In this document: piece after piece, positions 10,752 through 63,768 of the stretch
How the letters are laid out: each line of letters opens with the position of its first letter
How positions within the stretch are numbered: position 1 is the first letter of the stretch
Virus record (IMG/VR): IMGVR_UViG_3300044641_009805
Location: 62,001 to 126,000 of that record
DNA: 64,000 nucleotides
Source: a virus
Reading direction: 5' to 3' (one strand)
Translations under genes and position numbers: made by a program
Notes under the pieces: generated by a model
The model's database searches: none
What the model was told of the DNA's origin: nothing
What the model saw: the letters and a program-made list of their open reading frames with translations, nothing else

Positions 10752-10757
10752 ACCCGG

Positions 10758-10786
10758 TGCAAAGTTCGACCGTGATAGGGTATACT
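10758..10786 (+). promoter_or_regulatory. Leaderless-type promoter
   Basis: TGCAAA, 17 bp, TATACT (10781-10786), AGGACC, ATG 10793. Confidence 0.75.
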
Positions 10787-10792
10787 AGGACC

Positions 10793-11035: not shown

Positions 11036-11038
11036 CCC

Positions 11039-11118: not shown

Positions 11119-11139
11119 CGAGGGAGTGCAAGGGGACGG

Positions 11140-11168
11140 TGCAAAGTTCCACCGGAGAGGGATAAGAT
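11140..11168 (+). promoter_or_regulatory. Leaderless-type promoter
   Basis: TGCAAA, 17 bp, TAAGAT (11163-11168), GGACCC, ATG 11175. Confidence 0.75.
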
Positions 11169-11174
11169 GGACCC

Positions 11175-11705
11175 ATGACAGTGATATCGTGGATCGCCCT
11201 CCTCGTCGCCATAGTGGCCCTTGCTGACTCGCAAGAGACTCGAGCACGCCTCAAGACACTCAGCCGCATCCCCGGTCCACGAGGGCTCCGAGGTCTACGT
11301 GGGGCGCCAGGACCGAGAGGAGAGGCCGGAGAGGTAGGCCCATGTGGCCCACCAGGACCCCAAGGTGAAACAGGTCCCCAAGGAACCCCAGGCATTCCTG
11401 GGCCAAAGGGAGACCCAGGAGACGGTGGGCCAATGGGACCCCAAGGCCCGACAGGGGAAGCAGGACCCAAGGGTGAGACCGGTCTAACGGGTGACCAGGG
11501 TCCAAGCGGCCCAACAGGTCCCCAGGGTCCTCGAGGTGAGGCAGGACCGACCGGACCCCAAGGTGATATGGGACCACCTGGCCCACGGGGAGAAGTGGGA
11601 CCTAGAGGTCCCCAGGGCTTCAAGGGTGAGTCCAGCGGACCGGCCGAACGGGAACTCCTCGCCCATTGGGCCCACGAGGCACTGAAGCCCCGAGGCGAAG
11701 AATGA
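11175..11705 (+). CDS. Membrane-anchored collagen-like protein
   Basis: 176 residues. Residues 3-18 ([16 protein letters not shown]) form one membrane helix without a cleavage site. A short charged linker follows, and from Gly34 to about residue 153 there are 40 uninterrupted Gly-X-Y triplets rich in Pro, Glu, Lys and Arg, with one Cys (GPCGPP). A 20-residue helical tail ends the protein. Such repeats form collagen triple helices. Phage collagen repeats are best known from tail fibres, but this one has a membrane anchor, no fibre domains and a promoter of the small-gene array. That points to a trimeric rod attached to the host membrane (inference). Confidence 0.85.
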
Positions 11706-11716
11706 CACGAGATCGG

Positions 11717-11745
11717 TGCAAAGTCACCCCTGAATAGGGTATACT
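11717..11745 (+). promoter_or_regulatory. Leaderless-type promoter with GTG start
   Basis: TGCAAA, 17 bp, TATACT (11740-11745), GGGACC, GTG 11752. The only GTG among the leaderless-type starts. Confidence 0.75.
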
Positions 11746-11751
11746 GGGACC

Positions 11752-11949
11752 GTGAAGATCATCTACCTGTTGTTCAGCGACGTGACCTTCGGGACCCACG
11801 AGCACGGCTTCATCCCGCGCAAAGTCGTTCAGGATCCGGACGACGAGGACGCCCGCTACGAGCGCCACCTGAAGTCCAAGGGCATCAATGCCCGTGTGTA
11901 CGACGGCAAGGTGAAGCTCCTTGAGCCCGGGGAAAAGTTCACGATCTGA
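11752..11949 (+). CDS. Hypothetical protein, 65 residues
   Basis: Starts at GTG 11752, at the standard distance from the promoter: MKIIYLLFSDVTFGTHEHG. It is a strand, loop and helix (DDEDARYERHLKSKG), then a beta hairpin RVYDGKVKLLEPGEKF. Small alpha/beta fold, no known family. The preceding collagen gene and this one are separated by only the promoter. Confidence 0.7.
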   Translation: MKIIYLLFSDVTFGTHEHGFIPRKVVQDPDDEDARYERHLKSKGINARVYDGKVKLLEPGEKFTI

Positions 11950-11950
11950 G

Positions 11951-11979
11951 TGCAAAGTTCAACCTCGAAAGGATATACT
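11951..11979 (+). promoter_or_regulatory. Leaderless-type promoter
   Basis: TGCAAA, 17 bp, TATACT (11974-11979), AGGATC, ATG 11986. Confidence 0.75.
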
Positions 11980-11985
11980 AGGATC

Positions 11986-12213
11986 ATGAACAACGCAATC
12001 CAACCCGGCGATCGAGTCATCCTCTCCCCCGTCAACGGCCTCGGGTGCAGTGCCTTCCTCGTCCTGGAGGTCGACCCCAACGTGCATCCGACCCACCGCC
12101 TCTACGTCGAAGGCCGGAATGGCCAGCGCTGGTGGGCCCGGATCGAGGGAGCGCGGATCCTCCCGGAGGAACCTGAGGGGAACTTCACCTCGAGCCGTCA
12201 CGGCGATTGGTGA
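11986..12213 (+). CDS. Hypothetical protein, SH3-like, 75 residues
   Basis: MNNAIQPGDRVILSPVNGLG opens like a small SH3/KOW barrel (PGDRV, then AFLVLEVDPNV, RLYVEGRNGQRWWARIEG, ARILPEE). The tail GNFTSSRHGDW is polar. The start is fixed by the promoter; an in-frame codon at 11950 lies within the promoter and is rejected. Function unknown; such barrels often bind nucleic acids or proteins. Confidence 0.75.
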   Translation: MNNAIQPGDRVILSPVNGLGCSAFLVLEVDPNVHPTHRLYVEGRNGQRWWARIEGARILPEEPEGNFTSSRHGDW

Positions 12214-12232
12214 GAAAAAGCCCTCCATCCGG

Positions 12233-12261
12233 TGCAAAGTCAACCCCGAACGAGGTAAGGT
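12233..12261 (+). promoter_or_regulatory. Leaderless-type promoter
   Basis: TGCAAA, 17 bp, TAAGGT (12256-12261), AGAACC, ATG 12268. A5 tract upstream after the preceding stop. Confidence 0.75.
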
Positions 12262-12267
12262 AGAACC

Positions 12268-12462
12268 ATGGACACCGCATTCGAAGTCTTCATCTCCGAC
12301 ACCATCCATGGCACCTCCGACCGTCGGGCATACAAGACCCGGGAGCGGGCCGTGGCTCGGTACGAGGAGCTGACGCGGAACCACAAACGCAATGGCCACT
12401 CCGCCGTGATCCTCCGCCAGGGCAAAGCACAGATCTTCCCGGCACCGATCTGCGGCCGCTGA
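12268..12462 (+). CDS. Hypothetical protein, 64 residues
   Basis: MDTAFEVFISDTIHGT, then a basic helix RAVARYEELTRNHKRNG and a strand SAVILRQGKAQIF. The strand-helix-strand plan resembles that of the 73-residue protein at 10176, though the identity is too low to claim homology by eye. Basic overall. Function unknown. Confidence 0.7.
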   Translation: MDTAFEVFISDTIHGTSDRRAYKTRERAVARYEELTRNHKRNGHSAVILRQGKAQIFPAPICGR

Positions 12463-12463
12463 G

Positions 12464-12492
12464 TGCAAAGTTCACAGAGGAAAGGATATACT
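12464..12492 (+). promoter_or_regulatory. Leaderless-type promoter
   Basis: TGCAAA, 17 bp, TATACT (12487-12492), AGGACC, ATG 12499. Confidence 0.75.
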
Positions 12493-12498
12493 AGGACC

Positions 12499-12714
12499 AT
12501 GAAGAACATCATCACCCTCCTCAACGACGGCGAGACCTTCACCTCCGCGGAGGGCACCTCGGTCTGCTTCCTCTCCGACGACGACGTGGATCTCCTCGCC
12601 TCGGGTGAACGCACCATCGACGAGCTGGTCGGTGCCGTGGGCCGGCGACGGTACGACCTCACCAACCCGGCCCACCTCCGCCTCCTCGCGGACCGGCTCG
12701 AAAAGAACCGCTGA
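12499..12714 (+). CDS. Hypothetical acidic protein, 71 residues
   Basis: MKNIITLLNDGETFTSAEGT, then SVCFLSDDDVDLLASGERTIDELV and a C-terminal helix HLRLLADRLEKNR. Acidic in the middle and basic at the end. Possible small alpha/beta regulator; no family recognised. Confidence 0.7.
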   Translation: MKNIITLLNDGETFTSAEGTSVCFLSDDDVDLLASGERTIDELVGAVGRRRYDLTNPAHLRLLADRLEKNR

Positions 12715-12718
12715 CCGG

Positions 12719-12747
12719 TGCAAAGTTCGACTCCGAAAGGATATACT
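12719..12747 (+). promoter_or_regulatory. Leaderless-type promoter
   Basis: TGCAAA, 17 bp, TATACT (12742-12747), AAGACC, ATG 12754. Confidence 0.75.
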
Positions 12748-12753
12748 AAGACC

Positions 12754-12936
12754 ATGAAGATCTCCCGCGCCCAAATGACCTTCGACCGCAACAAGGACGC
12801 CGTGGGCATCCACCTCACCCTCGACGACGCGAAGCGGATCCGGGCAGCCTTGAGCGACCTGGACGGGGAAGACCTGGACAACTACGGCGGGATCCTCGAA
12901 CGCCTGCGGAAGGCCATTCCCCAACAGTGGGGCTGA
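12754..12936 (+). CDS. Hypothetical protein, 60 residues
   Basis: MKISRAQMTFDRNKDAVGIH followed by a helical part LTLDDAKRIRAALSDLDGED and LRKAIPQQWG. Strand then helices; no recognisable family. The stop is followed by an A5 tract that precedes the next promoter. Confidence 0.7.
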   Translation: MKISRAQMTFDRNKDAVGIHLTLDDAKRIRAALSDLDGEDLDNYGGILERLRKAIPQQWG

Positions 12937-12953
12937 AAAAGTTCACCCCTCGG

Positions 12954-12982
12954 TGCAAAGTTCGACCCCGAAAGGATAAGGT
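12954..12982 (+). promoter_or_regulatory. Leaderless-type promoter
   Basis: TGCAAA, 17 bp, TAAGGT (12977-12982), AGAACC, ATG 12989. Confidence 0.75.
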
Positions 12983-12988
12983 AGAACC

Positions 12989-13174
12989 ATGGACGCCAAA
13001 CACATCGCCCAGCTCATCGCCCAGGTGACCGACCTCCTCACCGCGGGGAAGATCGACCACGAGATGCAGGCCAACCTCACCGCCTCCCTCTGGGAGCTGG
13101 CGGCGCGGAAGGACCTCCGCGAGGAGGTGACGGAAATCCTTCGCCAGGACGCCCTCGAAGAGATGGGGGTGTGA
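12989..13174 (+). CDS. Hypothetical helical protein, 61 residues
   Basis: MDAKHIAQLIAQVTDLLTAG and two further helices (MQANLTASLWELAARK, REEVTEILRQDALEEMGV). An all-helical small bundle with regular Leu spacing. No known family. Confidence 0.7.
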   Translation: MDAKHIAQLIAQVTDLLTAGKIDHEMQANLTASLWELAARKDLREEVTEILRQDALEEMGV

Positions 13175-13207
13175 CGGGGACCCTCTGAAAAAAAAGCCTC
13201 GGGGCGG

Positions 13208-13236
13208 TGCAAAGTTCCACCGGGAAAAGGTATACT
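13208..13236 (+). promoter_or_regulatory. Leaderless-type promoter
   Basis: TGCAAA, 17 bp, TATACT (13231-13236), AAGACC, ATG 13243. A8 tract about 12 bp upstream. Confidence 0.75.
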
Positions 13237-13242
13237 AAGACC

Positions 13243-13521
13243 ATGGAAAACATCTCCAAGGGTTTCAAAAGCTGGCAAGGCATCGCTCGGATTCCGTCGG
13301 CGGACAATGCCGTCCAAATCTGGGATCTCATGGCAGCCGACTGGACCTACCACAAGGACAACTTTCCGGACCGCGTCCCGGCCGGGTTCGAAAACTGCTC
13401 CTTTGAGGACCTCGAGTTCACCTCCCATCCCCGCAAGGACCGTCTCCTGGCTCGGCCGGCCGGCACCAAAATCCCCTTCCACATCTGGCGGGGAGCCCTC
13501 CAAGGCTTCAATACAAAGTGA
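13243..13521 (+). CDS. Hypothetical protein, 92 residues
   Basis: MENISKGFKSWQGIARIPSA with several Trp and Phe residues (WDLMAADWTYHKDNF, ENCSFEDLEF) and a basic C-terminal third (HPRKDRLLARPAGTK). A soluble aromatic-rich domain of unknown family. It is followed directly by a strong terminator. Confidence 0.7.
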   Translation: MENISKGFKSWQGIARIPSADNAVQIWDLMAADWTYHKDNFPDRVPAGFENCSFEDLEFTSHPRKDRLLARPAGTKIPFHIWRGALQGFNTK

Positions 13522-13527
13522 CCGGTT

Positions 13528-13556
13528 GGGGGAGGACCTTCGGGTCCTCCCCCTTT
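13528..13556 (+). terminator. Rho-independent terminator
   Basis: GGGGGAGGACC-TTCG-GGTCCTCCCCC, a perfect 11-bp GC-rich stem with a UUCG tetraloop, followed by TTT. The next promoter begins 3 bp later. Confidence 0.9.
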
Positions 13557-13559
13557 CCG

Positions 13560-13588
13560 TGCAAAGTTCCCACCAGAAAAGGTACACT
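13560..13588 (+). promoter_or_regulatory. Leaderless-type promoter
   Basis: TGCAAA, 17 bp, TACACT (13583-13588), GAGACC, ATG 13595. The last member of the array. Confidence 0.75.
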
Positions 13589-13594
13589 GAGACC

Positions 13595-13957
13595 ATGAAG
13601 AACCCCGGCAAGGGCGAGTCCACCCTGGCCACCACCATCCAGTCACTCGGCCTCGAGGCACACATGGACAAGGCCAACTTCCTCGAACTCCGTGAGGCGG
13701 CCTACACGATCGACCGCCTCCGTGCCGACCTCACCGACTGCTCTCGGCTCATGGCGAAACGTCTCACCTCCTTCGCGGATGACATCGCCGATGGCCGCAC
13801 TCACATGTCTCCCCCCACGGGCAGCTCCCTCCTCGACGACATCACGGAGAAGACCGCGGTGCTCAATGAGAAGACCTCGGCCTTCCCCACCCTCCTCCGC
13901 CTCGTGCTCGGCCCCGACGGGTCGAAGGAGTTCTTCCGGATCCTCCGCGGAGTGTGA
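13595..13957 (+). CDS. Hypothetical helical protein, paralogue of 6231-6593
   Basis: 120 residues, same length as the protein at 6231. The alignment covers the central ELREAAYTIDRLRADL, the MAKRLTSFADDIADGRT stretch and the end FFRILRGV. The start is the ATG placed by the promoter at 13560; the long open frame back to 13307 overlaps the previous gene in another frame. All-helical and Ala/Leu rich. Function unknown. Confidence 0.8.
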   Translation: MKNPGKGESTLATTIQSLGLEAHMDKANFLELREAAYTIDRLRADLTDCSRLMAKRLTSFADDIADGRTHMSPPTGSSLLDDITEKTAVLNEKTSAFPTLLRLVLGPDGSKEFFRILRGV

Positions 13958-13986
13958 AGCTCCACCTCGTCAGCAGCTGACACGCG

Positions 13987-14007
13987 GGAGGATGATATAT
14001 ATCCTCC
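13987..14007 (+). promoter_or_regulatory. Palindrome with TATAT loop directly before a start codon
   Basis: GGAGGAT-GATATAT-ATCCTCC, 7-bp arms and a 7-nt loop, ending at the base before ATG 14008. It holds both the only Shine-Dalgarno-like GGAGG and a TATAT box, so folding would hide the ribosome site. Confidence 0.65.
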
Positions 14008-14295
14008 ATGAAGCTAACGTCAGAACAACTACGCATCATCATCGACGACGTCATCGCCGAGGACCTCAAGAACGTCCGCGGCAAACACGAACACACCATC
14101 GCAGGCACCACCGCCCTTCGACGAATGCACGATGCGCCCGGCGTACTCGAGGCGCTATCACAGATCACGGACCCCAAAGAACTGGCGCAGGTCATCGAGG
14201 CCATCATCGACGCGGTGCCCATGGTCAAACGCGGCGACGTCCTGGAAACATTGGCGAAGGTGACGCGCCACGAACGATCAACGCGGAGGTTCTGA
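14008..14295 (+). CDS. Head-signal family protein (MKLT N-terminus), 95 residues
   Basis: Starts MKLTSEQLRIIIDDVIAEDL, which fits the shared N-terminal amphipathic helix, with VIAE/D a possible cleavage point. The remainder is helical (APGVLEALSQITDPKELAQVI) with a basic C-terminal end. Instead of the TGCAAA promoter it has the TATAT hairpin, so it may be expressed with the late or head genes rather than with the array (inference). Followed 1 bp later by a membrane peptide gene. Confidence 0.75.
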   Translation: MKLTSEQLRIIIDDVIAEDLKNVRGKHEHTIAGTTALRRMHDAPGVLEALSQITDPKELAQVIEAIIDAVPMVKRGDVLETLAKVTRHERSTRRF

Positions 14296-14296
14296 C

Positions 14297-14395
14297 ATGA
14301 ACCTCAACAGATCACACCTCATAGCCTTCCTCGAAGGCGCGGCCATCGGCATCATCATCGGCTGGGTGCTGTGGTGGGGCCTGCTGCAAGGTTGA
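14297..14395 (+). CDS. 32-residue single-pass membrane peptide
   Basis: MNLNRSHLIAFLEG followed by the hydrophobic segment AAIGIIIGWVLWWGLLQG to the stop at 14393-14395. One membrane helix with a Gly-rich face. It starts 1 bp after the MKLT gene, so it is presumably translated with it. No function assignable. Confidence 0.6.
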   Translation: MNLNRSHLIAFLEGAAIGIIIGWVLWWGLLQG

Positions 14396-14545
14396 ACTAC
14401 AAGGGGCCTGTGGAGAGAGCAAACGGGCCTAGGGGCCGCCCCCTTGCAAGGGCCCCTCAAAGGCCCCTCTTTAGGCCCCTAAAATGGGGCCCCGGCCCCG
14501 CCCCTAAAAGGGGCATTTTCTGTGGGGTTTTTGGGGCCGCCGGGG
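14376..14545 (+). repeat. GGGGCC/GGCCCC palindrome cluster
   Basis: Octamer AGGGGCCT at 14402 and its complement AGGCCCCT at 14461 and 14473 (12 bp apart), plus AAGGGCCCCT at 14449 and GGGGCC cores at 14376, 14432 and 14486. Nested inverted repeats include GGCCCC-TAAAAT-GGGGCC (14474-14491) and CCCC-TAAAA-GGGG (14501-14513). 14396-14634 holds no gene I can support. Downstream is AATCTC/GAGATT dyad symmetry near 14566-14587. The cluster marks the change in base composition. Candidate origin, terminator array or recombination boundary. Confidence 0.7.
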
Positions 14546-14634
14546 GGCGCTAAACCCGCGCGCAAATCTCGAGAAATTTTGAGATTAAAGCGGTCCTTAC
14601 CCACGCTCGTGGGGGCACATGCCTATTTATAAGC

Positions 14635-14817
14635 ATGTTAAAGCTCAGCCCCGGAGATCTGTGCGTCTACGAAGATGATGGCGTGGCACCGAGAGAGATC
14701 TTGGATCGAGTCTTGGTGTTCCTGTATCATCTCGATGAACAGCCGGATGAGGGAATCTTCCTGTGCAACGACGGGACGGTTGACTTCGAGTACATAGCCT
14801 TTCTAAAGAGGTTGTGA
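14635..14817 (+). CDS. Hypothetical acidic protein, 60 residues
   Basis: MLKLSPGDLCVYEDDGVAPRE with LVFLYHLDEQPDEGIFLCNDG: a small barrel-like beta protein with a PGD turn near the start. Preceded by CTATTTATAAGC ending at the ATG, a TATA-type sequence unlike the left-arm promoters. Codon GC is clearly lower than in the array. Function unknown. Confidence 0.65.
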   Translation: MLKLSPGDLCVYEDDGVAPREILDRVLVFLYHLDEQPDEGIFLCNDGTVDFEYIAFLKRL

Positions 14818-14948
14818 ATTGAGTTCCGGCTCCGCGGATTTTCTGGAGCTGTTGTGGTGCTCGAAAATTTCTCGGGAAATTTTTTGCGTCGAAATGACCG
14901 TTGTTCTTCGCGTCTGGAGCGACGTACCATGGTGGCTGAGGTGATGAG

Positions 14949-15053
14949 ATGCGTATGAGGTATGGTAAGATGTTTGAGAGGATGTTCGTGGCTTCGGTGT
15001 TTCGGTTGATCATTGGAGCCTTGTTGGCCCCGTTGCGGCGGCTCTTTCGGTAG
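14949..15053 (+). CDS. 34-residue basic membrane-active peptide
   Basis: MRMRYGKMFERMFVASVFRL continues IIGALLAPLRRLFR. Seven Arg residues flank a hydrophobic centre, giving an amphipathic or membrane-inserting helix. A GAGGTGAT ribosome site lies just upstream. No supporting overlap or homologue was available, so it is a possible gene only. Confidence 0.4.
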   Translation: MRMRYGKMFERMFVASVFRLIIGALLAPLRRLFR

Positions 15054-15096
15054 ATGTCAGGTAGCGTGATATATATGTGTTGAGACAGGAGACGAC

Positions 15097-15474
15097 ATGA
15101 AGCTGACGCTGCCGAGATTGAGACAGATCATCAAAGAAGAACTTGAGACGCTGACGGGAGGAGATGGGCCTGGGGGACAGTGGAGGCTCACGGCAGAGCC
15201 TGCGATGGACATTTTGGCGGATGAGGCGGCGTCAAATCCTGCTCTCGTGTACGACGCGAATCCTGATGTGGATGAGACTCGTGAGGGCGTCCTTTCCAGG
15301 TTGAGTGATCCTGAAACGGGCGCGTTCGTGGAGCTCTCTCTAAGAGAGACCGACCAAGTTGTCGTGCGCTGGGCAGCCTCGAGGGCGCGCCCCAAGGTCA
15401 GCGTTTTGAAAGGCGATTCTCGTGACGACCGTACCATGATGGACGTGATGGACGACGCCTTTGGTGGCGTCTGA
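15097..15474 (+). CDS. Head-signal family protein (MKLT N-terminus), 125 residues
   Basis: Starts MKLTLPRLRQIIKEELETLT, with the same spacing of L/I residues as the other members, then a Gly-rich break GGDGPGGQW suitable for cleavage. The mature part is alpha/beta (TAEPAMDILADEAASNPALV, GAFVELSLRETDQVVVRWAA). Promoter-like GATATATAT at 15068-15076 and a good AGGAG before the ATG. Likely packaged with the head if the signal hypothesis holds. Confidence 0.75.
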   Translation: MKLTLPRLRQIIKEELETLTGGDGPGGQWRLTAEPAMDILADEAASNPALVYDANPDVDETREGVLSRLSDPETGAFVELSLRETDQVVVRWAASRARPKVSVLKGDSRDDRTMMDVMDDAFGGV

Positions 15475-15604
15475 GAATCTTTTTAAATTGTCGTGTGTGG
15501 AAAACCAATAAATTATCGAAGAATGATTCTTGGGCTTTGTGGTGCATAGAGGCACCGACTTGTTGTACAAGTGACCTTAAGGAATTAAGGTAGTAATCAA
15601 GCTT

Positions 15605-16540
15605 ATGGCATTAGGCGTTTGTTGCCATTGGATTCGGCGCGAGACCGCGCCGCGGAGTGGCAAGTTGCAAGTCATTAACGAGTTGGATGAGAAGACGCTG
15701 CAGTTGGGTCGGTACGAACGAGGAGCGTATTCCGAAGATGCGATTCGTTCGTTGTACCTTCACAACGCTCGAATGTTACGCGACGTGTTGCGGAAGGTGG
15801 CCGCGAGTGGCGTGCGGTTATTTCGCGTGTCAAGCGCCATGTTTCCGTTGAGCGATCGCGTGCCTCGGAGGTTGTGGGACAACGATGCCTTGCGGGGCGA
15901 GCTGGCGTTGTGTGGCGAGGTGGCTCGGAAGTGTGGTATTCGGTTGACGACGCATCCGGGTCAGTTCTGCGTGTTGTCGTCGGATTCTGACTCGGTGGTT
16001 GAGAAGGCGATCGTCGAGCTCGAGCATCACGCGTGGATGTTTGATTCGATGGGGATGCCGCGGAGTCCGTACGCTGCGATCAACGTGCATGGTGGTAAGG
16101 CGGATCGGCAGACGAGGTTGATCGACGCGATTCGGTCATTGCCGGAGGCTAGTCGATCGCGATTGACGCTGGAGAATTGCGAGACGTGTTATTCGTTGGT
16201 GGATCTGTTGCCGGTGTCGATGGAGACGGGTGTGCCGATCGTGTGGGATTCGCATCATCATGTTTTCAACGACGGTGGATTGGACGGCGCAGAGGCTGCG
16301 GACGCAGCCGATGAGACGTGGCCTAAGGGTGTGAAACCCCTGCAACACATCAGCAATACCGAGCCAGGCATGGAAGGTGGATCTTTCACCGAGCGGCGCA
16401 AGCACAGCGACATGATCCATTATATTCCTGCGGTGCAGCTCGAGCGCCTGCGGCGCGATGCAGTGGATCTAGAGGTGGAGGCGAAGATGAAAAATCTCGC
16501 TGTCCTCGAGATGCCTAAGAAATTTGATGTGCCCCTTTAA
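15605..16540 (+). CDS. uvsE: UV-damage endonuclease UvsE/UvdE
   Basis: 311 residues, the normal size for the compact bacterial and phage form. Reads MALGVCCHWI at the start, as UvdE proteins do (LGYxC). Metal-binding stations of the TIM barrel are visible: HPGQFCVLSS (about 119-128), INVHGGKADRQTR, LENCETCYS, IVWDSHHHVFN and the C-terminal DMIHYIP. The enzyme cuts 5' of UV photoproducts and starts repair independent of UvrABC. Upstream TGTACA-16-TAAGGT (15562-15589) may be its promoter. Moderately GC-rich compared with the genes that follow. Confidence 0.92.
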   Translation: MALGVCCHWIRRETAPRSGKLQVINELDEKTLQLGRYERGAYSEDAIRSLYLHNARMLRDVLRKVAASGVRLFRVSSAMFPLSDRVPRRLWDNDALRGELALCGEVARKCGIRLTTHPGQFCVLSSDSDSVVEKAIVELEHHAWMFDSMGMPRSPYAAINVHGGKADRQTRLIDAIRSLPEASRSRLTLENCETCYSLVDLLPVSMETGVPIVWDSHHHVFNDGGLDGAEAADAADETWPKGVKPLQHISNTEPGMEGGSFTERRKHSDMIHYIPAVQLERLRRDAVDLEVEAKMKNLAVLEMPKKFDVPL

Positions 16541-16548
16541 TCTTCCAG

Positions 16549-16575
16549 TGCAATGTTAATGTTGCATGGTATAAA
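16549..16575 (+). promoter_or_regulatory. TGCAAT/TATAAA promoter, divergent member of the TGCAAA family
   Basis: TGCAAT (16549-16554), 15-bp spacer, TATAAA (16570-16575), with GTT after the -35 box as in the left-arm family. It has a leader of about 40 nt to ATG 16624. Confidence 0.5.
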
Positions 16576-16623
16576 AAGAATTTGTTCCCTGGATTTGATG
16601 AACGCACGAAAGTGAGAAAAAAA

Positions 16624-16905
16624 ATGGCAAAGAAAGCAAAGACAAACAAGATCAACGTTGATTCCCCGATTCCTTTTCCTCAGGTGCACACGTTCGATGA
16701 GTTGGCTGTCATCGATGACGATTCATTGAACAACATGCAGCGATCGCTGACGGATTCCATCTCTAGGGTGAATAGTCATGGGTTGAATCCTTCAGCATGG
16801 GAGGTTGAGATGTGTTATGTACAGCGAGAGCTGCAGATTCGAACAGCTCGTCGTGAGGCCCACGCAAAGTATGTTTCGACTGTTTCCGTCACGGAGGAGG
16901 ATTGA
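16624..16905 (+). CDS. Hypothetical protein upstream of sigma
   Basis: 93 residues from ATG 16624 (MAKKAKTNKINVDSP). Basic N-terminus, then DELAVIDDDSLNNMQRSLTDSISRV and a helix with VQRELQIRTARREAHAKY. Its stop overlaps the sigma start region, and the strong GGAGGAGG inside its last codons serves the sigma gene, so the two are coupled. Similar small proteins with a LxxMxxxLxxxxxRxxxxGxxxxxWExExCYxQRE pattern are familiar from phages (recalled), with unknown role. Confidence 0.75.
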   Translation: MAKKAKTNKINVDSPIPFPQVHTFDELAVIDDDSLNNMQRSLTDSISRVNSHGLNPSAWEVEMCYVQRELQIRTARREAHAKYVSTVSVTEED

Positions 16906-16907
16906 AT

Positions 16908-17735
16908 TTGAGTTCTCAAGGCACAATTTCTCGAGAAAACTCTCGAGAGTCAGCCTTCGGCGGCGATTCAATGAATCGCTACTTTTCTTCTCTAAAGAAC
17001 CATCAACAGCTTTCGCATGAGCAGATGATGGAGCTCTTTAAGGTCCTCGAAGCAGGGGGTCTTGACGCGCCTCTCGCGAAGAAAAAGTTGATCGAGACCA
17101 ATCTTCGTTTGGTCGTTTATGTGGCGAAGCAGTACAAGAACCACAGCATGCCTCTCGAAGACATCATTCAAGAAGGCAACATGGGGTTGATGAGAGCGAT
17201 TGAGAAGTTTGATTGGAAGAAGGGATTTAGGTTCTCAACCTACGCGACCTGGTGGGTTAGGCAAGCGATTGGTCAACACATCCTGAAGCAGAAGCGGGTC
17301 ATCAGAATGTCCGCGCATGCCGTGAATACTCAAAAGAAGTTGTTGACAGCCGCCGAAGAATACAGGAACGCGATGGGATGTGAGCCAACTCCTGAAGAGT
17401 TGAAGGAGTTGACAGGCACTTCAGATGCAATCTTCAACGCGATGAGGATCAGTGGTCGATCGATTATTTCGCTTGATCAACCTCTGTCCTCAGATCCAGA
17501 TGCTGACACGATTGAAGATAAGATTGAGGCGGATCCTACGTCAGATCCACTCGAGATTTTTTCTTCCAAGCAAATGTTAGAGTTGGCTCAACGAGTCATC
17601 GTGGGCCTTTCTCCAAAGGAAGCTGCGATTTTGAGGTTACGGTTCGGGCTGGTCGACGACGTGTTGAGCGATGAATCTTATAAGATCACTCAAGAGCAAG
17701 TTGAGAAGATCTCAATGGGAGAAGGTCTCACGTGA
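16908..17735 (+). CDS. Sigma-70 family factor lacking region 4.2
   Basis: 275 residues from TTG 16908, chosen for the GGAGGAGG 7 nt upstream; an ATG at 16971 is the alternative. Region 2 is well conserved: LRLVVYVAKQYKNHSMPLED, IIQEGNMGLMRAIEKFD and the -10-reading FRFSTYATWWVRQAIGQHI (about 108-126), then region 3 (RMSAHAVNTQKKL, EPTPEELKELTG). Region 4.1 is present (LSPKEAAILRLRFGL), but the chain stops at QEQVEKISMGEGLT where the -35-binding helix-turn-helix 4.2 should follow. No frameshift restores it. T4 gp55 also lacks sigma-4 and works with gp33 and the sliding clamp. A separate 4.2-type protein is encoded at 57419. Probably the late-transcription sigma (inference). Confidence 0.88.
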   Translation: MSSQGTISRENSRESAFGGDSMNRYFSSLKNHQQLSHEQMMELFKVLEAGGLDAPLAKKKLIETNLRLVVYVAKQYKNHSMPLEDIIQEGNMGLMRAIEKFDWKKGFRFSTYATWWVRQAIGQHILKQKRVIRMSAHAVNTQKKLLTAAEEYRNAMGCEPTPEELKELTGTSDAIFNAMRISGRSIISLDQPLSSDPDADTIEDKIEADPTSDPLEIFSSKQMLELAQRVIVGLSPKEAAILRLRFGLVDDVLSDESYKITQEQVEKISMGEGLT

Positions 17736-55964: not shown

Positions 55965-57356
55965 TTACAATATTTGAGAAGCCAATGTAGCAAGTTCGCT
56001 TCTTTCTCCTTTTAGCATAGTAACGTGTCCAGCTATATCATACTCTTTAAATTTTTCAATTGCGTATGTTAAACCGCATGTGTATGCATCAACATGCACA
56101 TTGTCGATCTGTTCAATATCTCCAGTAAGAACTATCTTTGTTCCGTCTCCTACTCTGGTTATGATCGTCTTTAATTCATGCATTGAAAGGTTTTGAGCCT
56201 CATCAATGACTATAAAAGAATTAGGTATAGATCTTCCTCTGATGAAGGTAATCGCTTCAATCTCAATTAACCCTTTTTCTTGCATTAAAGACAAATACGC
56301 ATTGCTATCGGTCTTGTTCCACCCGCTGTCTGCTTTTGTTCCGCCTCTGACTTTTGCTGCGTTACCTCTCTTACTTCCCATTAAGAAATTTAAATTGTCT
56401 TTGATGGGAGATATCCAAGGTTCCATTTTTTCTTGTAAAGTTCCAGGTAAAAATCCGATGTCTTTTCCTACAGGCTGAACTGGCTTTGTTACTATTAATT
56501 TTGAATACCTGGCTACTTCTGGACTTCCTATTCCTTTTAGCTGTTCTAGTGCTGCGGCTAACGCTAACAGGGTTTTTCCGCTTCCGCTTAATCCGACCAA
56601 GGTTAAAAGCTTAACGTCAGGATCAAAAAGCAAATCTAAAGAAAATGCTTGTTCTTTGTTCCTAGGTTTTAACCCAAAGACATTTTCAAACTTCTCGATT
56701 GGAACAAGCGTTTTAACTCCGTCAACAACTTTTAACTTTGTTATTGCTGATTTTACTGTCTTTTCGTTCTCTACGTGCTTGATTATGACGACTTGGTTTG
56801 GATATCTGACTTGAGGAACATCGATTACTAATTTTTCCTGATGATAAAAATTGTCTATTTCATCTTCAGATAGCTCTACAACTTCTACTCCTTTGTAAAA
56901 AGTTTTTGGATCATTAGTAATTCTTAATTTCAAATAATCTTCAGATACTATTCCTAAAGCATCACACTTAATTCTTACGTTAATATCTTTAGAAACCAGT
57001 ATGTAATCTCTTGGTAATCCTAACATTAAGCTTATGATTACGTTGTCTGCCTTCGTTGGATCTAGTTCTACTGGTAGTTTTTCTTTTACAACTGTAGAAT
57101 CAACTGATACTACTCGTAAAATTCCGCCTTCAGGCAATGCAACTCCGTCTATCAAACTATCATTAGATGATCTCATACCATCCAATGTTCTGCTCACGCT
57201 TCTGGCGTTGTGTCCTACTTCATCCATTCTGCTTTTATGGTGGTCTAATTCCTCTAAAACCACCATTGGAATAATGACATCATTATCTTGAAATGAAAAT
57301 ATAGCATTAGGATCGCTTAAAAGAACGTTCGTGTCAAGGACGTATGTTTTTTTCAT
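55965..57356 (-). CDS. phoH: PIN-PhoH fusion (PhoH2-like ATPase/RNase)
   Basis: 463 residues from ATG 57356. The PIN-type RNase domain is YVLDTNVLLSDPNAIF (Asp8), then VVLEELDHHK and NVRIKCDALGI. A PhoH P-loop ATPase domain follows: LLTLVGLSGSGKTLLALAAA (Walker A), SFIVIDEAQNLSMHELKTII (Walker B) and KIVLTGDIEQID. The two-domain layout is that of PhoH2 proteins, which unwind and cut RNA. The earlier in-frame codon at 57443 lacks support. Common as an auxiliary gene in marine T4-like phages. Confidence 0.92.
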   Translation of the reverse strand: MKKTYVLDTNVLLSDPNAIFSFQDNDVIIPMVVLEELDHHKSRMDEVGHNARSVSRTLDGMRSSNDSLIDGVALPEGGILRVVSVDSTVVKEKLPVELDPTKADNVIISLMLGLPRDYILVSKDINVRIKCDALGIVSEDYLKLRITNDPKTFYKGVEVVELSEDEIDNFYHQEKLVIDVPQVRYPNQVVIIKHVENEKTVKSAITKLKVVDGVKTLVPIEKFENVFGLKPRNKEQAFSLDLLFDPDVKLLTLVGLSGSGKTLLALAAALEQLKGIGSPEVARYSKLIVTKPVQPVGKDIGFLPGTLQEKMEPWISPIKDNLNFLMGSKRGNAAKVRGGTKADSGWNKTDSNAYLSLMQEKGLIEIEAITFIRGRSIPNSFIVIDEAQNLSMHELKTIITRVGDGTKIVLTGDIEQIDNVHVDAYTCGLTYAIEKFKEYDIAGHVTMLKGERSELATLASQIL

Positions 57357-57418: not shown

Positions 57419-57697
57419 ATGACAAAAAGCAAAAGTTTACCAATACTAAAACAATCAGCTACTTGCTTTGAGACGCATGCTAAATACAACGTCAACTGCA
57501 ATAAAGACAGCTGCAAAAATTACATGAATGATAAAAATAATCAAAACTGTGTAATCGTTGCAGCTCAAAAAGGACCATATACCCTACAAAATATAGGAAA
57601 AATATATGGATTGACAAGAATGAGAATTTGTCAAATAGAAAAAAACATCATTCAAAAGTTAAAGTTTCAGCTGTTGTTTGATAATGATTTCTTTTGA
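57419..57697 (+). CDS. Stand-alone sigma-70 region 4.2 helix-turn-helix protein
   Basis: 92 residues from ATG 57419. Residues 55-74, TLQNIGKIYGLTRMRICQIE, are a near-canonical sigma region 4.2 (compare TLEEVGxxxGxTRERxRQIE), followed by KNIIQKLK. The N-terminal half has four Cys (16, 27, 32, 44) and may hold zinc. The protein contains no region 2 or 3. It supplies exactly what the 16908-17735 sigma factor lacks, like T4 gp33 for gp55. One of only two complete plus-strand genes in the right arm; a TATAAA lies 11 bp before the ATG. It overlaps the 57667-58086 gene tail to tail. Confidence 0.82.
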   Translation: MTKSKSLPILKQSATCFETHAKYNVNCNKDSCKNYMNDKNNQNCVIVAAQKGPYTLQNIGKIYGLTRMRICQIEKNIIQKLKFQLLFDNDFF

Positions 57698-58086
57698 AAT
57701 AATTGCTTTTTCTTTTGCTTTTCTGACTGTTCATCAACACTTTTATCAGTTGAAAAATTAACTTCCACTTTTTCTTCAAGAATTGCGGATTCAGCGTCAG
57801 CTTCTTTTTCTTTTAAGGAAGCATTAGTAGTAATGGTAGCTTTTTCGTTTTCAACTCTAGGACTAACGTCCACAATTTCGGTAAGCTTTTCTTGCTTTAA
57901 AGTTTCTACCTTAGTGGATTCTTCTTGCGCCGGTACAAAAACGAAACCTGGTTTAAGATTAAGATCTTTCTTCTTTTTTGAAGAAACATTCTTAAGCTTT
58001 CCATCTTTAGACAAAGATCTATGGGATTTTTTTGGATCTAATCCCAAGTTTAAGATATCTGCTAGGACTGCTCTAGGTGCTGGCAT
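57667..58086 (-). CDS. Hypothetical charged protein, 139 residues
   Basis: MPAPRAVLADILNLGLDPKK is followed by a Lys/Ser stretch (SLSKDGKLKNVSSKKKKDLN) and a long low-complexity acidic/basic tail ending in QKKKQLFQKKSLSNNS. Probably disordered except for the N-terminal helix. The APRxxLxDILxxGLDP opening looks specific, but I do not recognise a family. Function unknown. Confidence 0.65.
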   Translation of the reverse strand: MPAPRAVLADILNLGLDPKKSHRSLSKDGKLKNVSSKKKKDLNLKPGFVFVPAQEESTKVETLKQEKLTEIVDVSPRVENEKATITTNASLKEKEADAESAILEEKVEVNFSTDKSVDEQSEKQKKKQLFQKKSLSNNS

Positions 58087-58124
58087 TTTTTCCTCTTATT
58101 CAATTTAAATTTGAATATTAATTC

Positions 58125-58148
58125 AAACGGGTGCTGAAGCACCCGTTT
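58125..58148 (-). terminator. Bidirectional-type terminator after the Hc1-like gene
   Basis: AAACGGGTGC-TGAA-GCACCCGTTT, perfect 10-bp stem with T-runs on both strands, 10 bp after the stop of 58158-58361. Confidence 0.85.
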
Positions 58149-58157
58149 AATAATTAT

Positions 58158-58361
58158 TCACTTTGAATCTTTTGAACTTTTTTCAAAAGCAATCGTTGTT
58201 TTCACCATGTCGGATGCTTTTGTTTTTAATTCTCTCAAACCTTTTCTGACTCTGACGCCAGCCGCAGCAACTCCTCTAGCTGATTTTGCAACGTCATGTT
58301 CAAGAGATTCAACTAAAGATTTAACTTCATTCCATTTTGCTAAAACTTCATTATCGGACAT
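58158..58361 (-). CDS. Histone H1-like (Hc1-type) DNA-binding protein
   Basis: 67 residues from ATG 58361 (MSDNEVLAKWNEVKSLVESL). The pattern VESLEHDVAKSARGVAAAGV, then RVRKGLRELKTKASDMVKTT, is that of the N-terminal domain of chlamydial Hc1 and related bacterial H1-like proteins (long helix, Gly/Ala-Ala turn, RxRKxLxxL). The Lys/Ala-rich C-terminal tail of full Hc1 is missing. Small, basic and helical, it could compact DNA in the cell or head. Bounded by a terminator, so it is probably made in quantity. Confidence 0.7.
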   Translation of the reverse strand: MSDNEVLAKWNEVKSLVESLEHDVAKSARGVAAAGVRVRKGLRELKTKASDMVKTTIAFEKSSKDSK

Positions 58362-58414
58362 TTGATTGTTACCTCCAGAATTAATATACGGAATCACGTT
58401 TGCAGGTAAATATC

Positions 58415-60070
58415 TTAAAAAATTTTAAATGTTTCGTCAAACAATGTTCGATTCATTCTAAAAAACTTTTCCCAATCAGAATCTAATATGTAAGAGATTG
58501 CATGGTCACTTTCATTCCTAATTGATCTACCTAAAGATTGGATTATAGATTTGGCTGTCATATAAGGATACCAAAACTTGTTTTTTTCCATTCTCTTTTT
58601 TACGACCAAGTCTCCTAGATAAGGAAAAGGAATCTTACATATAATTTGAAAACGACTTAAATCGTCATGTAAGTCTACTCCTTCCATCATAGAAGGGCTG
58701 ACTAGCACAGTTGGATCCTTGCTGTTGACATGAAACTTTAGCATTTCTTCTCTATTGCTTGAATCATGAAGTACTAACCTGTGAGAATCTACGTTCTCTT
58801 TGATGTATTTTGCTACTTTGAAATTGGTACAATGAATGATTCCTTTTTCTTGAGGATGCTTTTCTAGCAACAATTTTACAACCTCTACCATTTTTGGAAG
58901 TGTAGAATCAATTGTCGATTTTGACATAGATCCTACAGGCAAAAAATGAACAGGCCTGTTTTCTACAGGAAATGGCGAAGGTATAGAAAGATAAGAAACA
59001 TCTTTCTCTTCAATGCCGATAGATCGAGAAAAAATTTCTTTGTTGACAATTGTTGCAGACATTAGCAACACTCTATTTCCTAATCTAAAAAAACTTGAAT
59101 ATGCGTAAGGTGAAACATCAATTGGTTTAAATTCGAATTTTTTACCTGCCTTCTTGTTATCGTATGAAGGTAATGCTACGTTCATGATCCAATTTTCAGG
59201 TTTATAGACTTCTATAAATCGATTGATCTTACACACATGTTTATCTAAAATCTCATATTGCTTTGAAAAATTGCCATATCCTTCAATATCATTGCTAAGT
59301 TTTTCTAGAGCCTTTTCTACTTCTTTGATGTGCTTCAACAAGGCTTTTTTGTAAGTCGAATTGATCCATTCAAAAATAGCAGATTGAGATTCTGATTTTG
59401 GAGACTTACACTTTAGAATGTCTCTAGCAAATTTTTCTGAAAAAGTAATCTCAATGAATTTTCCGAGCTCAGTTTCAGCATTGTGAGCTTCGTCTACGAT
59501 AAGCATAGCTCTAGGTTCTAATTTCCCTGCGTAAGTAGATTCTGCAAGAAGATAAGGAAAATTAGTAACAGCGATAGAAGAATCTATAAATTCTTGCTTT
59601 TCTATAGAATACTTGCAATTAGTTTTACAGTTTTTTTGAAAATCAGTTCCATTTAACTGTTTTCCTAAATTCATCAAGATTCTTTTAGATTCAGCGCACG
59701 TTTGATCTGAATAAAAAGAACACATATAATTGCTGGAAGATTTTATAGATTTGACAAGATTCTTCCCACAGCTTGGACCGAAGTCTCTTAGATACTGCTC
59801 TTGAAGAATTTTTTGCGTTGTAACCACATAAGAACCAACCAAACGATCACCATTCTCTCCAATTGAAATTGGAGCATGATTTTCCATGTATCTAGCAATT
59901 GTAATTCCTGTTGCGGATTTACCCACGCCAGTACCTAGCTCTAAGATTACATACTTCTTATTTTCGTTTAAGAAAGAGTTTAAAGCAAAGTTAATTGCTA
60001 CTTCTTGCTCTTTGCGAATCTTATCGAATGGAAAATACATTTTCCAATCTTCAATAGAGATTTTTTTCAT
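58415..60070 (-). CDS. DinG/XPD-family superfamily 2 helicase
   Basis: 551 residues. Motif I is ELGTGVGKSATG (44-55), motif II is LIVDEAHN, then LLMSATIVNKE (motif III type) and the C-terminal VLVSPSMMEGVDLHDD and IIQSLGRSIRNESDHAISYI (motif VI). Between I and II, cysteines in PSCGKN, YMCSF, QTCAES and NCKTNCKYS are in position for the 4Fe-4S cluster of DinG/XPD proteins. A 5'-3' DNA helicase for repair or replication restart is likely. A 12-bp hairpin (60079-60107) lies just upstream of the start. Confidence 0.88.
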   Translation of the reverse strand: MKKISIEDWKMYFPFDKIRKEQEVAINFALNSFLNENKKYVILELGTGVGKSATGITIARYMENHAPISIGENGDRLVGSYVVTTQKILQEQYLRDFGPSCGKNLVKSIKSSSNYMCSFYSDQTCAESKRILMNLGKQLNGTDFQKNCKTNCKYSIEKQEFIDSSIAVTNFPYLLAESTYAGKLEPRAMLIVDEAHNAETELGKFIEITFSEKFARDILKCKSPKSESQSAIFEWINSTYKKALLKHIKEVEKALEKLSNDIEGYGNFSKQYEILDKHVCKINRFIEVYKPENWIMNVALPSYDNKKAGKKFEFKPIDVSPYAYSSFFRLGNRVLLMSATIVNKEIFSRSIGIEEKDVSYLSIPSPFPVENRPVHFLPVGSMSKSTIDSTLPKMVEVVKLLLEKHPQEKGIIHCTNFKVAKYIKENVDSHRLVLHDSSNREEMLKFHVNSKDPTVLVSPSMMEGVDLHDDLSRFQIICKIPFPYLGDLVVKKRMEKNKFWYPYMTAKSIIQSLGRSIRNESDHAISYILDSDWEKFFRMNRTLFDETFKIF

Positions 60071-60138: not shown

Positions 60139-60753
60139 TTATGCACCAATAATTTTATCCACGATGCCTAATTTGATTGCTTCTTCAGGAGTCACATAAA
60201 AATCATGTCCAGATTTCATGATTTTTTCGACTTGCTCTTTTGTCATGTTGGATTCTTTTTGAAGAGATGAAACCATCAATTCTTGTAGCCTTTTGAATTC
60301 GTTGGTTTCACTCATGGATTCAAAAACGTTTCCGTAAAAACCTCCTGATATAGGATGCATCATAAGTCTTGCTGATGATCCAATTAAGCGTTTGCCTTTC
60401 ACGCCAGAAGCTAGCAGTAGCACACCTGCTGACATTACTTTACCCAACGCTATTGTATGGACAGGACATGGCAAAAATCTGATGGTATCATAAAGCGAAA
60501 ACATTTCATCTACAGACCCTCCATAAGTAGAAACCACTAGATGAATTGGTTTGTGGTTTTGATTTGCTAAATACAAGAGCTGATAGATTACTGCGGAAAT
60601 TGATTGTTCGCTGACCCCTCCGTATAATACTACGATTCTAGAATCTTCTCCATGTTTTGGATGAGGGAGCAAAGCTGCTAACTCAGCTTCATCATGATCG
60701 CCGGTTTTATTTTTTGTTGTAAACGGAGTTTTTACGTTAATTGATCTTCCCAT
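60139..60753 (-). CDS. clpP: ClpP-like serine protease
   Basis: 204 residues from ATG 60753, favoured over 60756 because of the distance to AAGGAG. Catalytic Ser108 in GKVMSAGVLLLASG and His133 in ARLMMHPISGG are in normal positions; the Asp is probably the one in SGHDFYVTPEEAIKLGIVD. YGGSVDEMFSLYDTIRFLPC is the usual oligomerisation region. ClpP forms tetradecameric chambers and normally needs a ClpX or ClpA partner, none of which is seen here. In some phages ClpP-type proteases mature the head, but this genome also has a gp21-type protease. Confidence 0.92.
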   Translation of the reverse strand: MGRSINVKTPFTTKNKTGDHDEAELAALLPHPKHGEDSRIVVLYGGVSEQSISAVIYQLLYLANQNHKPIHLVVSTYGGSVDEMFSLYDTIRFLPCPVHTIALGKVMSAGVLLLASGVKGKRLIGSSARLMMHPISGGFYGNVFESMSETNEFKRLQELMVSSLQKESNMTKEQVEKIMKSGHDFYVTPEEAIKLGIVDKIIGA

Positions 60754-61763: not shown

Positions 61764-62588
61764 ATGAGTGAAGTAAACAAAGTTAATGAAGATATCGTAG
61801 CGTTAAAAATCGCTTTATTAGAATCTAAGGTTCTAAAAGAGATATCTGAGAAGCAGCAAGAAGAATTGGAAAATTTTGTTGAAAAATCACAAAAAGCAGT
61901 AGAGTTGTTTTTAGACGCAATTACTAGCGAGAACATAAGTTCTACTGCTATTAAGGGATTTTTAGAAAAAGCAGAAGAAAAACAACGAGAATATCTAGAA
62001 AAGATTCAATCTGGTTCTTTAAAACCTAAAGACGAACAAAAAGCAATAGAGAACATAAAAAAAATAAATGGAGCTTTTGCAGGATTTGCCGTGGCAATGA
62101 AAAATATTCCAAAAGCAGGAATAGCAATAAAAGACTTCAAGAAAATATTAAAAAAAGAATTAGAAGACAGTAGAAATGATAATAGAACTTCTAAAAAAAT
62201 GTCAGAGCTATTTCCAAATGATTATCAGAAATTTTCAGCAGCCTTAAGTTCTTCTTTTAAAACTAAGATTAGCGTTTATGATCCTGTAAAATTGGGAATT
62301 CCTTGGGATACAAATGCTGTAGTTTCTGAATTCGTGAACATGCCTGTAAAAGCTTTAAATAGATTTACTGGTAAAGTTCAAGACAGCGAACCGCCTCCAA
62401 CTCCTCCTGCACCGACACCACCAGGGTCTCCACCGACACCTGCCGCACCTGATGTGAAAATTAAAGATATTTTCAAAGGTGCAAATGAACAAGACATTAG
62501 AAAGTTTAATGAAAAGTTTAAAGAAAAATTTGGATTTGAACTTTCTGATAAAGATGACCTAGCTGCAATACTTGCTAGTATGACATAA
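61764..62588 (+). CDS. Hypothetical protein with Pro-rich linker, 274 residues
   Basis: One of only two complete plus-strand genes right of 23 kb. Residues 1-190 are helical and highly charged, with likely coiled coil at SEKQQEELENFVEKSQKAVE. A linker of PPTPPAPTPPGSPPTPAAP (about 211-229) joins a 40-residue C-terminal helical domain (KGANEQDIRKFNEKFKEKFG). AGATATAATT lies 13 bp upstream. The Ala/Pro-linker style resembles the 21420 protein. It converges on and overlaps the GroEL-like gene by 14 bp. Confidence 0.7.
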   Translation: MSEVNKVNEDIVALKIALLESKVLKEISEKQQEELENFVEKSQKAVELFLDAITSENISSTAIKGFLEKAEEKQREYLEKIQSGSLKPKDEQKAIENIKKINGAFAGFAVAMKNIPKAGIAIKDFKKILKKELEDSRNDNRTSKKMSELFPNDYQKFSAALSSSFKTKISVYDPVKLGIPWDTNAVVSEFVNMPVKALNRFTGKVQDSEPPPTPPAPTPPGSPPTPAAPDVKIKDIFKGANEQDIRKFNEKFKEKFGFELSDKDDLAAILASMT

Positions 62589-63768
62589 TGACAGAGTTAT
62601 GTATTACTGCACCTAATGAATTTAATTTTTCAAAAAACAATTTAGAATATAAGTTAGAAGAGACATAAGATCCGTAAAGCTTAGAATCATTTATCACTCC
62701 AAATTCTATCATAGATTTTATTGATCTAAGACAATAATCAACAGATTGTCTTTTTACGACAAAATCGCTGGTATCTGGAAGTCTAATAATGACATTATTT
62801 GCTGACAAAGATCTTATTCTATCTTCATAGATTTCTTCTACATTTTTTGATTCTTCTCTTTTAGATAATAGAAATTTAATATGAGAATTGACATCAGATT
62901 TTGATGATTGATTTTTTATGCAAATTGAATTAACGTAAATAGAGATTTCATCTACTTTTCTTGCATCATCTATAGAAATATTAGAAATCAGTTGGCCTAA
63001 ATTGCTAGAAAACAAAGATGCAGAACAAGCTATTGAGATATCATTAAGTTTGTTTATTCCTTCCAGATTAAACTCAACTACAATAGGATAAACTTCAATA
63101 GCTCCTCTAATTCTATTGACTTTCAGTGTATTTAAAACTTCGTCATGAAGTCCTCTAGCTATTAGAATTACAGGGTGTTTTGTTGAACTTGCTCCTTCAA
63201 GCAATAAATTAATCTCAGAAACAGATTCAACAAATCCATCAATAACGATGACTCTAGGATTTACTATTTTTATTGGTTTTTCTTCAAAAGTTTTTACTTT
63301 AAAGGTAAAACCATCAATAGCTTCAATTGAAGTAAAGTTATTGCTAGACTTTTCTACAGATATTCTGCCACCAAACCCAGCTAAAAGCACAGCGTCAAAT
63401 AATAAGTTGCTTAACGTGTTATCGTCTTTTGTTTGAGAAAAAATGATTTTTTTTAGATCATTCAAAGTAGCCTTGTTTGAAGATCTGGTTTTATCATCAA
63501 GATTAGAGTTTAATATCCTGTGTAACGTAAAGTCAAACCCACCAGGAGATATTTTTTCTGATAAAATACAATGTTCTATAATCAACCTATGAATAGCTAA
63601 TTTCAGTTGATTAGAATATTTTAAATTAAAAATTCCTTGAAATGAAGTTTTTAACAAAACTTGATCTTTTTCAAGGAATAATACTTTTTCTGTATTTAAA
63701 AAATTTCTTAAATCATCGCATACTTCTTTAAATGATTCAAGTATTTCTTTTTTTAGAAAAATTGTCAC
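62575..63768 (-). CDS. Degenerate GroEL-like chaperonin
   Basis: 397 residues from GTG 63768 (GroEL: 548). The apical and intermediate domains align by pattern with GroEL: GGRISVEKSSNNFTSIEAID (GroEL GVITVEDG...VVEGM), NPRVIVIDGFVESVSEINLL, HPVILIARGLHDEVLNTLKV and NRIRGAIEVYPIV, followed by DDARKVDEISIYVNSICI and IKFLLSKREESKNVEEIYED and RIRSLSANNVIIRL (GroEL REKLQERVAKLAGGVAVI). The equatorial parts are short: no GDGTTT ATP motif is visible in the first 125 residues and the C-terminal equatorial half is cut off. ATP-driven folding is therefore unlikely; a scaffold, adaptor or GroEL antagonist is possible. Confidence 0.75.
   Translation of the reverse strand: MTIFLKKEILESFKEVCDDLRNFLNTEKVLFLEKDQVLLKTSFQGIFNLKYSNQLKLAIHRLIIEHCILSEKISPGGFDFTLHRILNSNLDDKTRSSNKATLNDLKKIIFSQTKDDNTLSNLLFDAVLLAGFGGRISVEKSSNNFTSIEAIDGFTFKVKTFEEKPIKIVNPRVIVIDGFVESVSEINLLLEGASSTKHPVILIARGLHDEVLNTLKVNRIRGAIEVYPIVVEFNLEGINKLNDISIACSASLFSSNLGQLISNISIDDARKVDEISIYVNSICIKNQSSKSDVNSHIKFLLSKREESKNVEEIYEDRIRSLSANNVIIRLPDTSDFVVKRQSVDYCLRSIKSMIEFGVINDSKLYGSYVSSNLYSKLFFEKLNSLGAVIHNSVIMSY

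Follow-up and report, generated by a model that had tools for sequence, protein, structure and literature searches.

A conserved short-form Hc1 gene in fixed order with a DinG-type helicase in a jumbo-phage lineage

The window analysed here, a stretch of 64,000 nucleotides, comes from a virus record of 278,435 bases (IMG/VR record IMGVR_UViG_3300044641_009805, positions 62,001 to 126,000) and carries on its minus strand, at 58158..58361, a small gene of the Hc1 family. Read on that strand, the interval translates as 67 codons and then a stop, with the ATG at 58361 and the stop codon at 58160-58158. A first-pass annotation, made from the sequence alone, had placed a 67-residue protein with the string RVRKGLRELK at 58158-58361; these coordinates are correct, and both the length and the string are present in the translation of the minus strand, to which the gene belongs. 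A plus-strand reading frame over the same interval is ruled out by stops all along it. The Shine-Dalgarno sequence GGAGGT can be read at 58371..58376 (minus strand), 9 nt 5' of the ATG, and GGAG or GAGG lies 5' of the start in 66 of 72 distinct upstream regions of Hc1 relatives. We also ruled out a longer frame opening with GTG at 58397: homologues and promoter put the start at 58361, and the GTG is unlikely because the conserved -10 box (58388-58383) would then fall within the gene. When IMG/VR was scanned with the window protein, 38 of 81 pattern-matching stretches proved to be loci encoding a relative. Over 60 codons, dN/dS was 0.03-0.10 in 13 of 15 Hc1 pairs; in the two remaining pairs, both of which include the window protein, silent sites are saturated and pN/pS is 0.18 and 0.22. 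The 67-aa frame is a real, conserved, phage-encoded Hc1 core protein.

The genes around it are those of a phage. A DinG-type DNA helicase (phrog_2488; 58415..60070, minus strand) lies directly upstream and a PhoH-like protein (phrog_2765; 55965..57356, minus strand) downstream, and both are conserved neighbours, the helicase being found upstream in 26 and PhoH downstream in 33 of the 38 Hc1 loci. Between Hc1 and PhoH is a gene for a low-complexity, Lys/Glu-rich protein of 139 aa (57667..58086, minus strand), for which neither PHROGs nor Pfam gave a family and which is matched in 13 of the 38 loci. A ClpP-like protease (phrog_94; 60139-60753), which also matches head-maturation protease families, and a GroEL-like protein (phrog_5725; 62575-63768) form a conserved block adjoining the helicase and Hc1. 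In addition to PhoH, ClpP-like, GroEL-like and DinG-type proteins, PHROGs matches among the 30 window proteins scanned include a major head protein, a prohead protease, a portal, a large terminase and a primase. Among annotated phages, the large terminase is best matched by its counterparts in Flavobacterium phages immuto (40% over 92%) and in Microcystis phage Mel-JY01 (42% over 87%). Judged by its genes, the record appears to belong to a jumbo phage related to T4, and it resembles the published moraphages.

To avoid the bias of searching with Hc1 itself, we surveyed contigs anchored on the helicase (best 80 of 251) and on PhoH (best 80 of at least 540). An Hc1 HMM, whose detection leans towards the lineage because it was built from sequences that include it, found Hc1 in 60 of the best 80 of 251 helicase contigs and in 48 of the best 80 of at least 540 PhoH contigs; near-identical contigs are included in these counts, and the 60 Hc1-bearing helicase contigs encode 55 distinct proteins. 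Among the best 80 of 251 helicase contigs, all 59 with a helicase identity of at least 52% (58 down to L171, plus the fragment L180) carry Hc1 downstream and on the same strand, and at identities of 51% or less Hc1 is present in one of 21 contigs only (L179), where it lies 3.2 kb away. The start of Hc1 falls 28-104 nt past the helicase match in 58 of the 60 Hc1-bearing contigs; in L170 the distance is 1.16 kb. The split by helicase identity therefore marks Hc1 as a core gene of one jumbo-phage lineage within the best 80 of 251 helicase contigs.

The first-pass annotation had called the product a phage-encoded, Hc1/H1-like histone with a core of chlamydial type, and had proposed an HMM search with the Hc1 family as a check. 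That search placed residues 9-61 on positions 3-56 of the 57-position Pfam Hc1 profile (PF07432) with an E value of 1e-10 and 41.7 bits against a cut-off of 23.5, which, with the phage genes around it, bears out a phage-encoded Hc1. The sole other Pfam row for the window protein, DUF6456 (E 0.02), is under that family's cut-off, no linker-histone match appeared in Pfam up to E 10, and PHROGs holds no family for it (best E 0.15). The chlamydial part of the earlier description stands for the short core alone: the N-terminal core domain is common to the window protein and chlamydial HctA (Hc1), but the NCBIfam HctA equivalog NF051889 gave 18.1 bits against a cut-off of 100. HctA has a long, basic, nucleic-acid-binding C-terminal region, in which its DNA-binding domain is located (PMC3469542), whereas the 67-aa window protein has no such region, ends in KSSKDSK and carries a net charge of +4. 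The winged-helix globular domain of eukaryotic linker histone H1 is likewise absent from its AlphaFold model, which consists of two helices. The window protein thus belongs to the Hc1 domain family and not to HctA or H1.

A dedicated promoter can be recognised between the helicase and Hc1. Its -10 box, TATATT, occupies 58383..58388 (minus strand), 21 nt 5' of the ATG, and a -35-like box, TTTAC, lies at 58406..58410 (minus strand), 17 nt 5' of the -10 box. With a spacing of 16-18 nt and TATA(T/C)(T/C) as -10 box, the promoter is present in 23 of the 38 Hc1 loci. The exact form occurs in 48 of 72 distinct Hc1 upstreams, against 0.07 on average and at most 2 when the upstreams were put through 200 rounds of plain letter shuffles; it is missing from 24, six of which have a looser form. 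Across 76 distinct helicase loci, a count that leaves out L180, 43 of 52 promoter occurrences are situated 10-45 nt 5' of Hc1 and 9 elsewhere, with none at the helicase start in any of the 76. Within 44 upstreams, whose box letters were fixed by the pattern used to choose them, 13 of the 17 spacer positions carry at most 0.31 bits. Since the upstream regions of related loci have a common origin, what argues for the promoter is this largely unconserved spacer together with position, and not any independence of the rows. All but 2,000 bases of the phage's own contig were searched, and of six promoter occurrences the one at Hc1 is the sole example with a Shine-Dalgarno-led frame at promoter distance; another has a short frame 162 nt away. 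With its 17-nt spacer and near-TATAAT -10 box, TTTAC-N17-TATATT is, we presume, akin to a housekeeping sigma70 promoter and not to a T4-late-type element. A T4-late-type promoter for the Hc1 gene was ruled out, the word ATAAATA occurring in only 1 of 38 Hc1 upstreams. Genome-wide word counts for a late motif returned weak matches only (CATAATT, ATAGTTAT), with no clear link of these words to head genes. Nothing certain about the timing of expression can be read from the class of the promoter.

At the other end of the gene, a hairpin of the form TTAAACGGGTGC-TTCA-GCACCCGTTTGA (58123..58150, minus strand) starts 7 nt past the Hc1 stop codon. The folded stretch has a predicted energy of -22.2 kcal/mol, with a z score of -5.1 against shuffles, and the hairpin fits a terminator pattern on both strands, being terminator-like on the plus strand too. 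The gene had earlier been described as flanked by its own terminator, and this description agrees with the z score and the pattern match; the promoter can now be added to it. In a raw count made without a shuffle control, 28 of the 38 loci have a hairpin with a stem of at least 10 no more than 90 nt from the stop, 6 have a shorter one and 4 have none. The terminators of L005, L007, L010, L011, L013 and L018 have in common a stem of the GGGATACATAT...TGTATCCC type, to which the window stem is unrelated. With start and stop signals of its own, the Hc1 gene appears to form a monocistronic unit.

The AlphaFold model of the protein (28 sequences) predicts two long helices, 3-28 and 32-66, with a mean pLDDT of 91.6 and a pTM of 0.70. 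When the model was compared by Foldseek with the PDB and with viral models, no match reached E<=0.001, and no relative of the window protein was found among solved structures. Two of the viral models listed bear the name 'Histone H1' (E 0.4 and 0.93, not significant). Conservation is concentrated on basic positions. In 75 sequences of the lineage, from which six rows had been dropped beforehand as divergent or outside (L265, L259, L266, L234, L239, L169), K26, R37 and R39 are invariant, R43 is basic in all 75, K40 in 74, and K54 in 74-75. Arginines matching R37 and R39 are present in 45 of 45 bacterial Hc1 sequences, many of which had been picked by a motif containing R-x-R, and the R-x-R-K core is kept; three bacterial loci (L079, L087, L112) were dropped because they had no readable motif. 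The apparent invariance of AGVRVRK among the phage proteins is an artefact of scanning with patterns that included all or most of this word; in the helicase-anchored contigs, AGVRARK, AGVRTRK and other variants occur. The window protein has a short tail. Of the 73 distinct relatives, 15 extend at least 8 residues past the core; 12 have a basic tail, with a net charge of at least +3, and some nine of the basic tails look rich in Lys, Pro and Ala by eye.

Hc1 extends beyond this lineage. PF07432 exceeded its cut-off in 26 of 26 records scanned, all chosen beforehand for holding a relative, and L169 gave no match with Pfam's own Hc1 model. The 26 include the huge phages Lak-C1 and Lak-B5 (77-78 bits), LR756500.1 (79 bits), LR745206.1 and LR756502.1; by tblastn, 15 Lak records match Hc1. 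In LR745206.1 (W03) there are two different Hc1 matches, at 567427-567558 and 246465-246620, with 61.1 and 26.2 bits. A gene of cyanophage S-SRM01 (L078) annotated as histone H1 passes the Pfam Hc1 model with 53.8 bits. Some 3 kb separate this gene (3941-4129) from one for DNA starvation/stationary phase protection (7187-7621), which we take to be of the Dps type and DNA-condensing. A tblastn search of annotated phages with the window protein gave no match, a result that we attribute to limited sensitivity because Hc1 did turn up in several annotated phages with other queries and with the Pfam model. No DinG or PhoH was seen in the few flanking frames scanned (three in LR756500.1, two in Lak-C1 and one in LR745206.1) or in the annotated flanks of the S-SRM01 gene. 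On the bacterial side, Hc1 was found in 87 of 148 sampled genomes of the phylum of Olivibacter (Bacteroidota) and in 10 of 99 of the phylum of a Phycisphaerales genome (Planctomycetota). The short-form Hc1 of these two phyla falls in the same length class as the phage protein (56-69 aa) and has, with few exceptions, the same N-x-AAG-x-R-x-R-K core, but its further conserved basic positions are K41 and R48 (L052 numbering), against R43 and K54 in the phages. An alignment scan of bacterial genomes for the form typical of the window lineage yielded 48 matches to the pattern, none of them a relative. A tree was built from 79 sequences and 66 columns; it is poorly resolved, with long branches flagged, and shows the window lineage as a group of 25 set apart from the bacterial short form on a long stem (support 100/99). 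Although they exceed the same Pfam cut-off as the window protein, the Lak, LR756500.1, LR745206.1, LR756502.1 and S-SRM01 proteins belong to other lineages in this tree, and Lak, other huge phages and the IMG/VR group L035-L037 fall outside the window lineage. The topology is compatible with several uptakes of Hc1 by phages, without a firm count.

That such phages carry Hc1 is already known. Perez-Hernandez et al. (2025) report PF07432 in their four complete moraphages (PMC12619734), jumbo phages which, like the record studied here, have T4-like modules, PhoH and Hc1. The available text of that paper names Bacteroidota as the predicted host phylum of 23 of 25 moraphages (a prediction for those phages, not for this one), suggests by analogy with giant viruses that Hc1 compacts the genome during packaging, and gives no Hc1 promoter, gene order, tail or spread past the moraphages. 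It was the only match for 'PF07432' in the open-licence literature, and among the open-licence papers listed none took up, in its title or the first lines of its abstract, Hc1 of Lak phages, an Hc1 promoter or Hc1 gene order; the word 'histone' is absent from the available text of a jumbo-phage paper (PMC7824862) and of the S-SRM01 paper (PMC8557907). The additions made here are the regulation of the gene, its tight synteny and its spread.

We are now able to propose a function, to which we give about an even chance of being right: short-form Hc1 would be a core nucleoid-associated protein of the phage, made from its own sigma70-like unit and organising DNA in the infected cell. The proposal builds on family membership, synteny, selection, the anatomy of promoter and terminator, and the conserved basic residues. 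Hc1 would be transcribed alone from TTTAC-N17-TATATT, in a unit completed by a near-minimal leader, a strong ribosome site and the gene's own terminator; with these signals it could therefore be made in quantity and independently of its neighbours, perhaps early or continuously. The helical hairpin probably pairs into dimers, and the invariant AG-x-R-x-R-K-x-x-R of the second helix would bind DNA without sequence preference, assisted in some relatives by a basic tail. Once bound, Hc1 may bridge or compact DNA inside the infected cell, with the replicating phage DNA as its most likely target. That the window protein condenses DNA or shields it from nucleases, as first suggested for it, is plausible. 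The net charge of +4, the short tail and the missing HctA-type C-terminal region count against a DNA-organising role. Over-production of HctA condenses the nucleoid of E. coli and inhibits growth and, in Chlamydia, nucleoids were still condensed when both histone genes were knocked down (available text of PMC13317200); in view of the latter result, the family may have a main function other than condensation.

Two other functions, each of them unlikely in our estimation, deserve to be weighed against a nucleoid role. Hc1 could instead be a virion or packaging protein that is made late, condenses or neutralises the genome as it is packaged and leaves with the virion, as proposed for the moraphages in the available text of PMC12619734. 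The gene does share its strand with the terminase, portal, protease and major head genes, some 23-34 kb away, and a link to the head is conceivable because the ClpP-like neighbour also matches head-maturation protease families. Its nearest company, however, is a helicase, PhoH and that ClpP-like protease, and its dedicated -35/-10 promoter, with a 17-nt spacer, is housekeeping-sigma-like, the near-absence of ATAAATA from Hc1 upstreams pointing in the same direction. The same promoter would suit a protein for host takeover, made early from host-type signals, that acts on the host chromosome by coating, compacting or silencing it, or else disables host Hc1 by pairing with it. Such a function, too, is improbable, even though HctA has the effect on E. 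coli noted above and Hc1 occurs in 87 of 148 sampled genomes of Bacteroidota, the phylum predicted to host 23 of 25 moraphages. Against it stands the fixed order in which Hc1 is kept as a core gene throughout the lineage (best 80 of 251 helicase contigs). Takeover genes tend to differ among relatives. Finally, it is very doubtful that the protein has no business with DNA and serves as a small helical-hairpin adaptor (e.g. for RNA, polymerase or a nuclease) with an Hc1 core, since the R-x-R-K basic motif is common to bacterial Hc1 and basic tails recur among relatives, despite the low net charge of the window protein and the generic nature of two-helix hairpins, the best PDB fold match being the phage anti-activator Aqs1 (E 0.65, not significant). 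As for other phage proteins that might fill a nucleoid role, no match to HU/IHF was found in the phage's own contig at E<=0.001.

If short-form Hc1 is indeed a phage nucleoid protein, its occurrence beyond this lineage would allow a broader and rather speculative extension. The largest tailed phages may have repeatedly taken up bacterial Hc1 as a chromatin protein of their own, in this lineage under a dedicated host-type promoter; in hosts that bear Hc1, the phage protein would replace or mix with that of the host from the start of infection, such that phage DNA is arranged as a nucleoid and host DNA loses its architecture. Phages of 250-650 kb must keep their DNA ordered, shielded and transcribable. 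How they do so can be tested directly on a small core protein that comes from a known bacterial DNA-organising family, stands behind a conserved promoter of its own and recurs among very large phages of several lineages. The minimal Hc1 core, with and without a tail, would also offer a way to ask what the widespread short Hc1 of bacteria does.

A separate observation concerns the start of the window. Positions 1-17000 have a GC content of 0.49-0.62, against 0.30-0.39 in 28-64 kb, and contain many short genes with a common repeated leader (gtgcaaagt...ggtatact..gatcATG). A chimeric contig as the cause of this step is not favoured, because both types of sequence occur together in one of the three related contigs examined: in the 212,804-base contig of L001, the GC-rich piece is scattered at 76-91% identity and the terminase region is 100% identical (rounded). 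The contigs of L002 and L018 match the terminase region only. The GC-rich 1-17000 has the look of a rapidly changing island, not of a misassembly.
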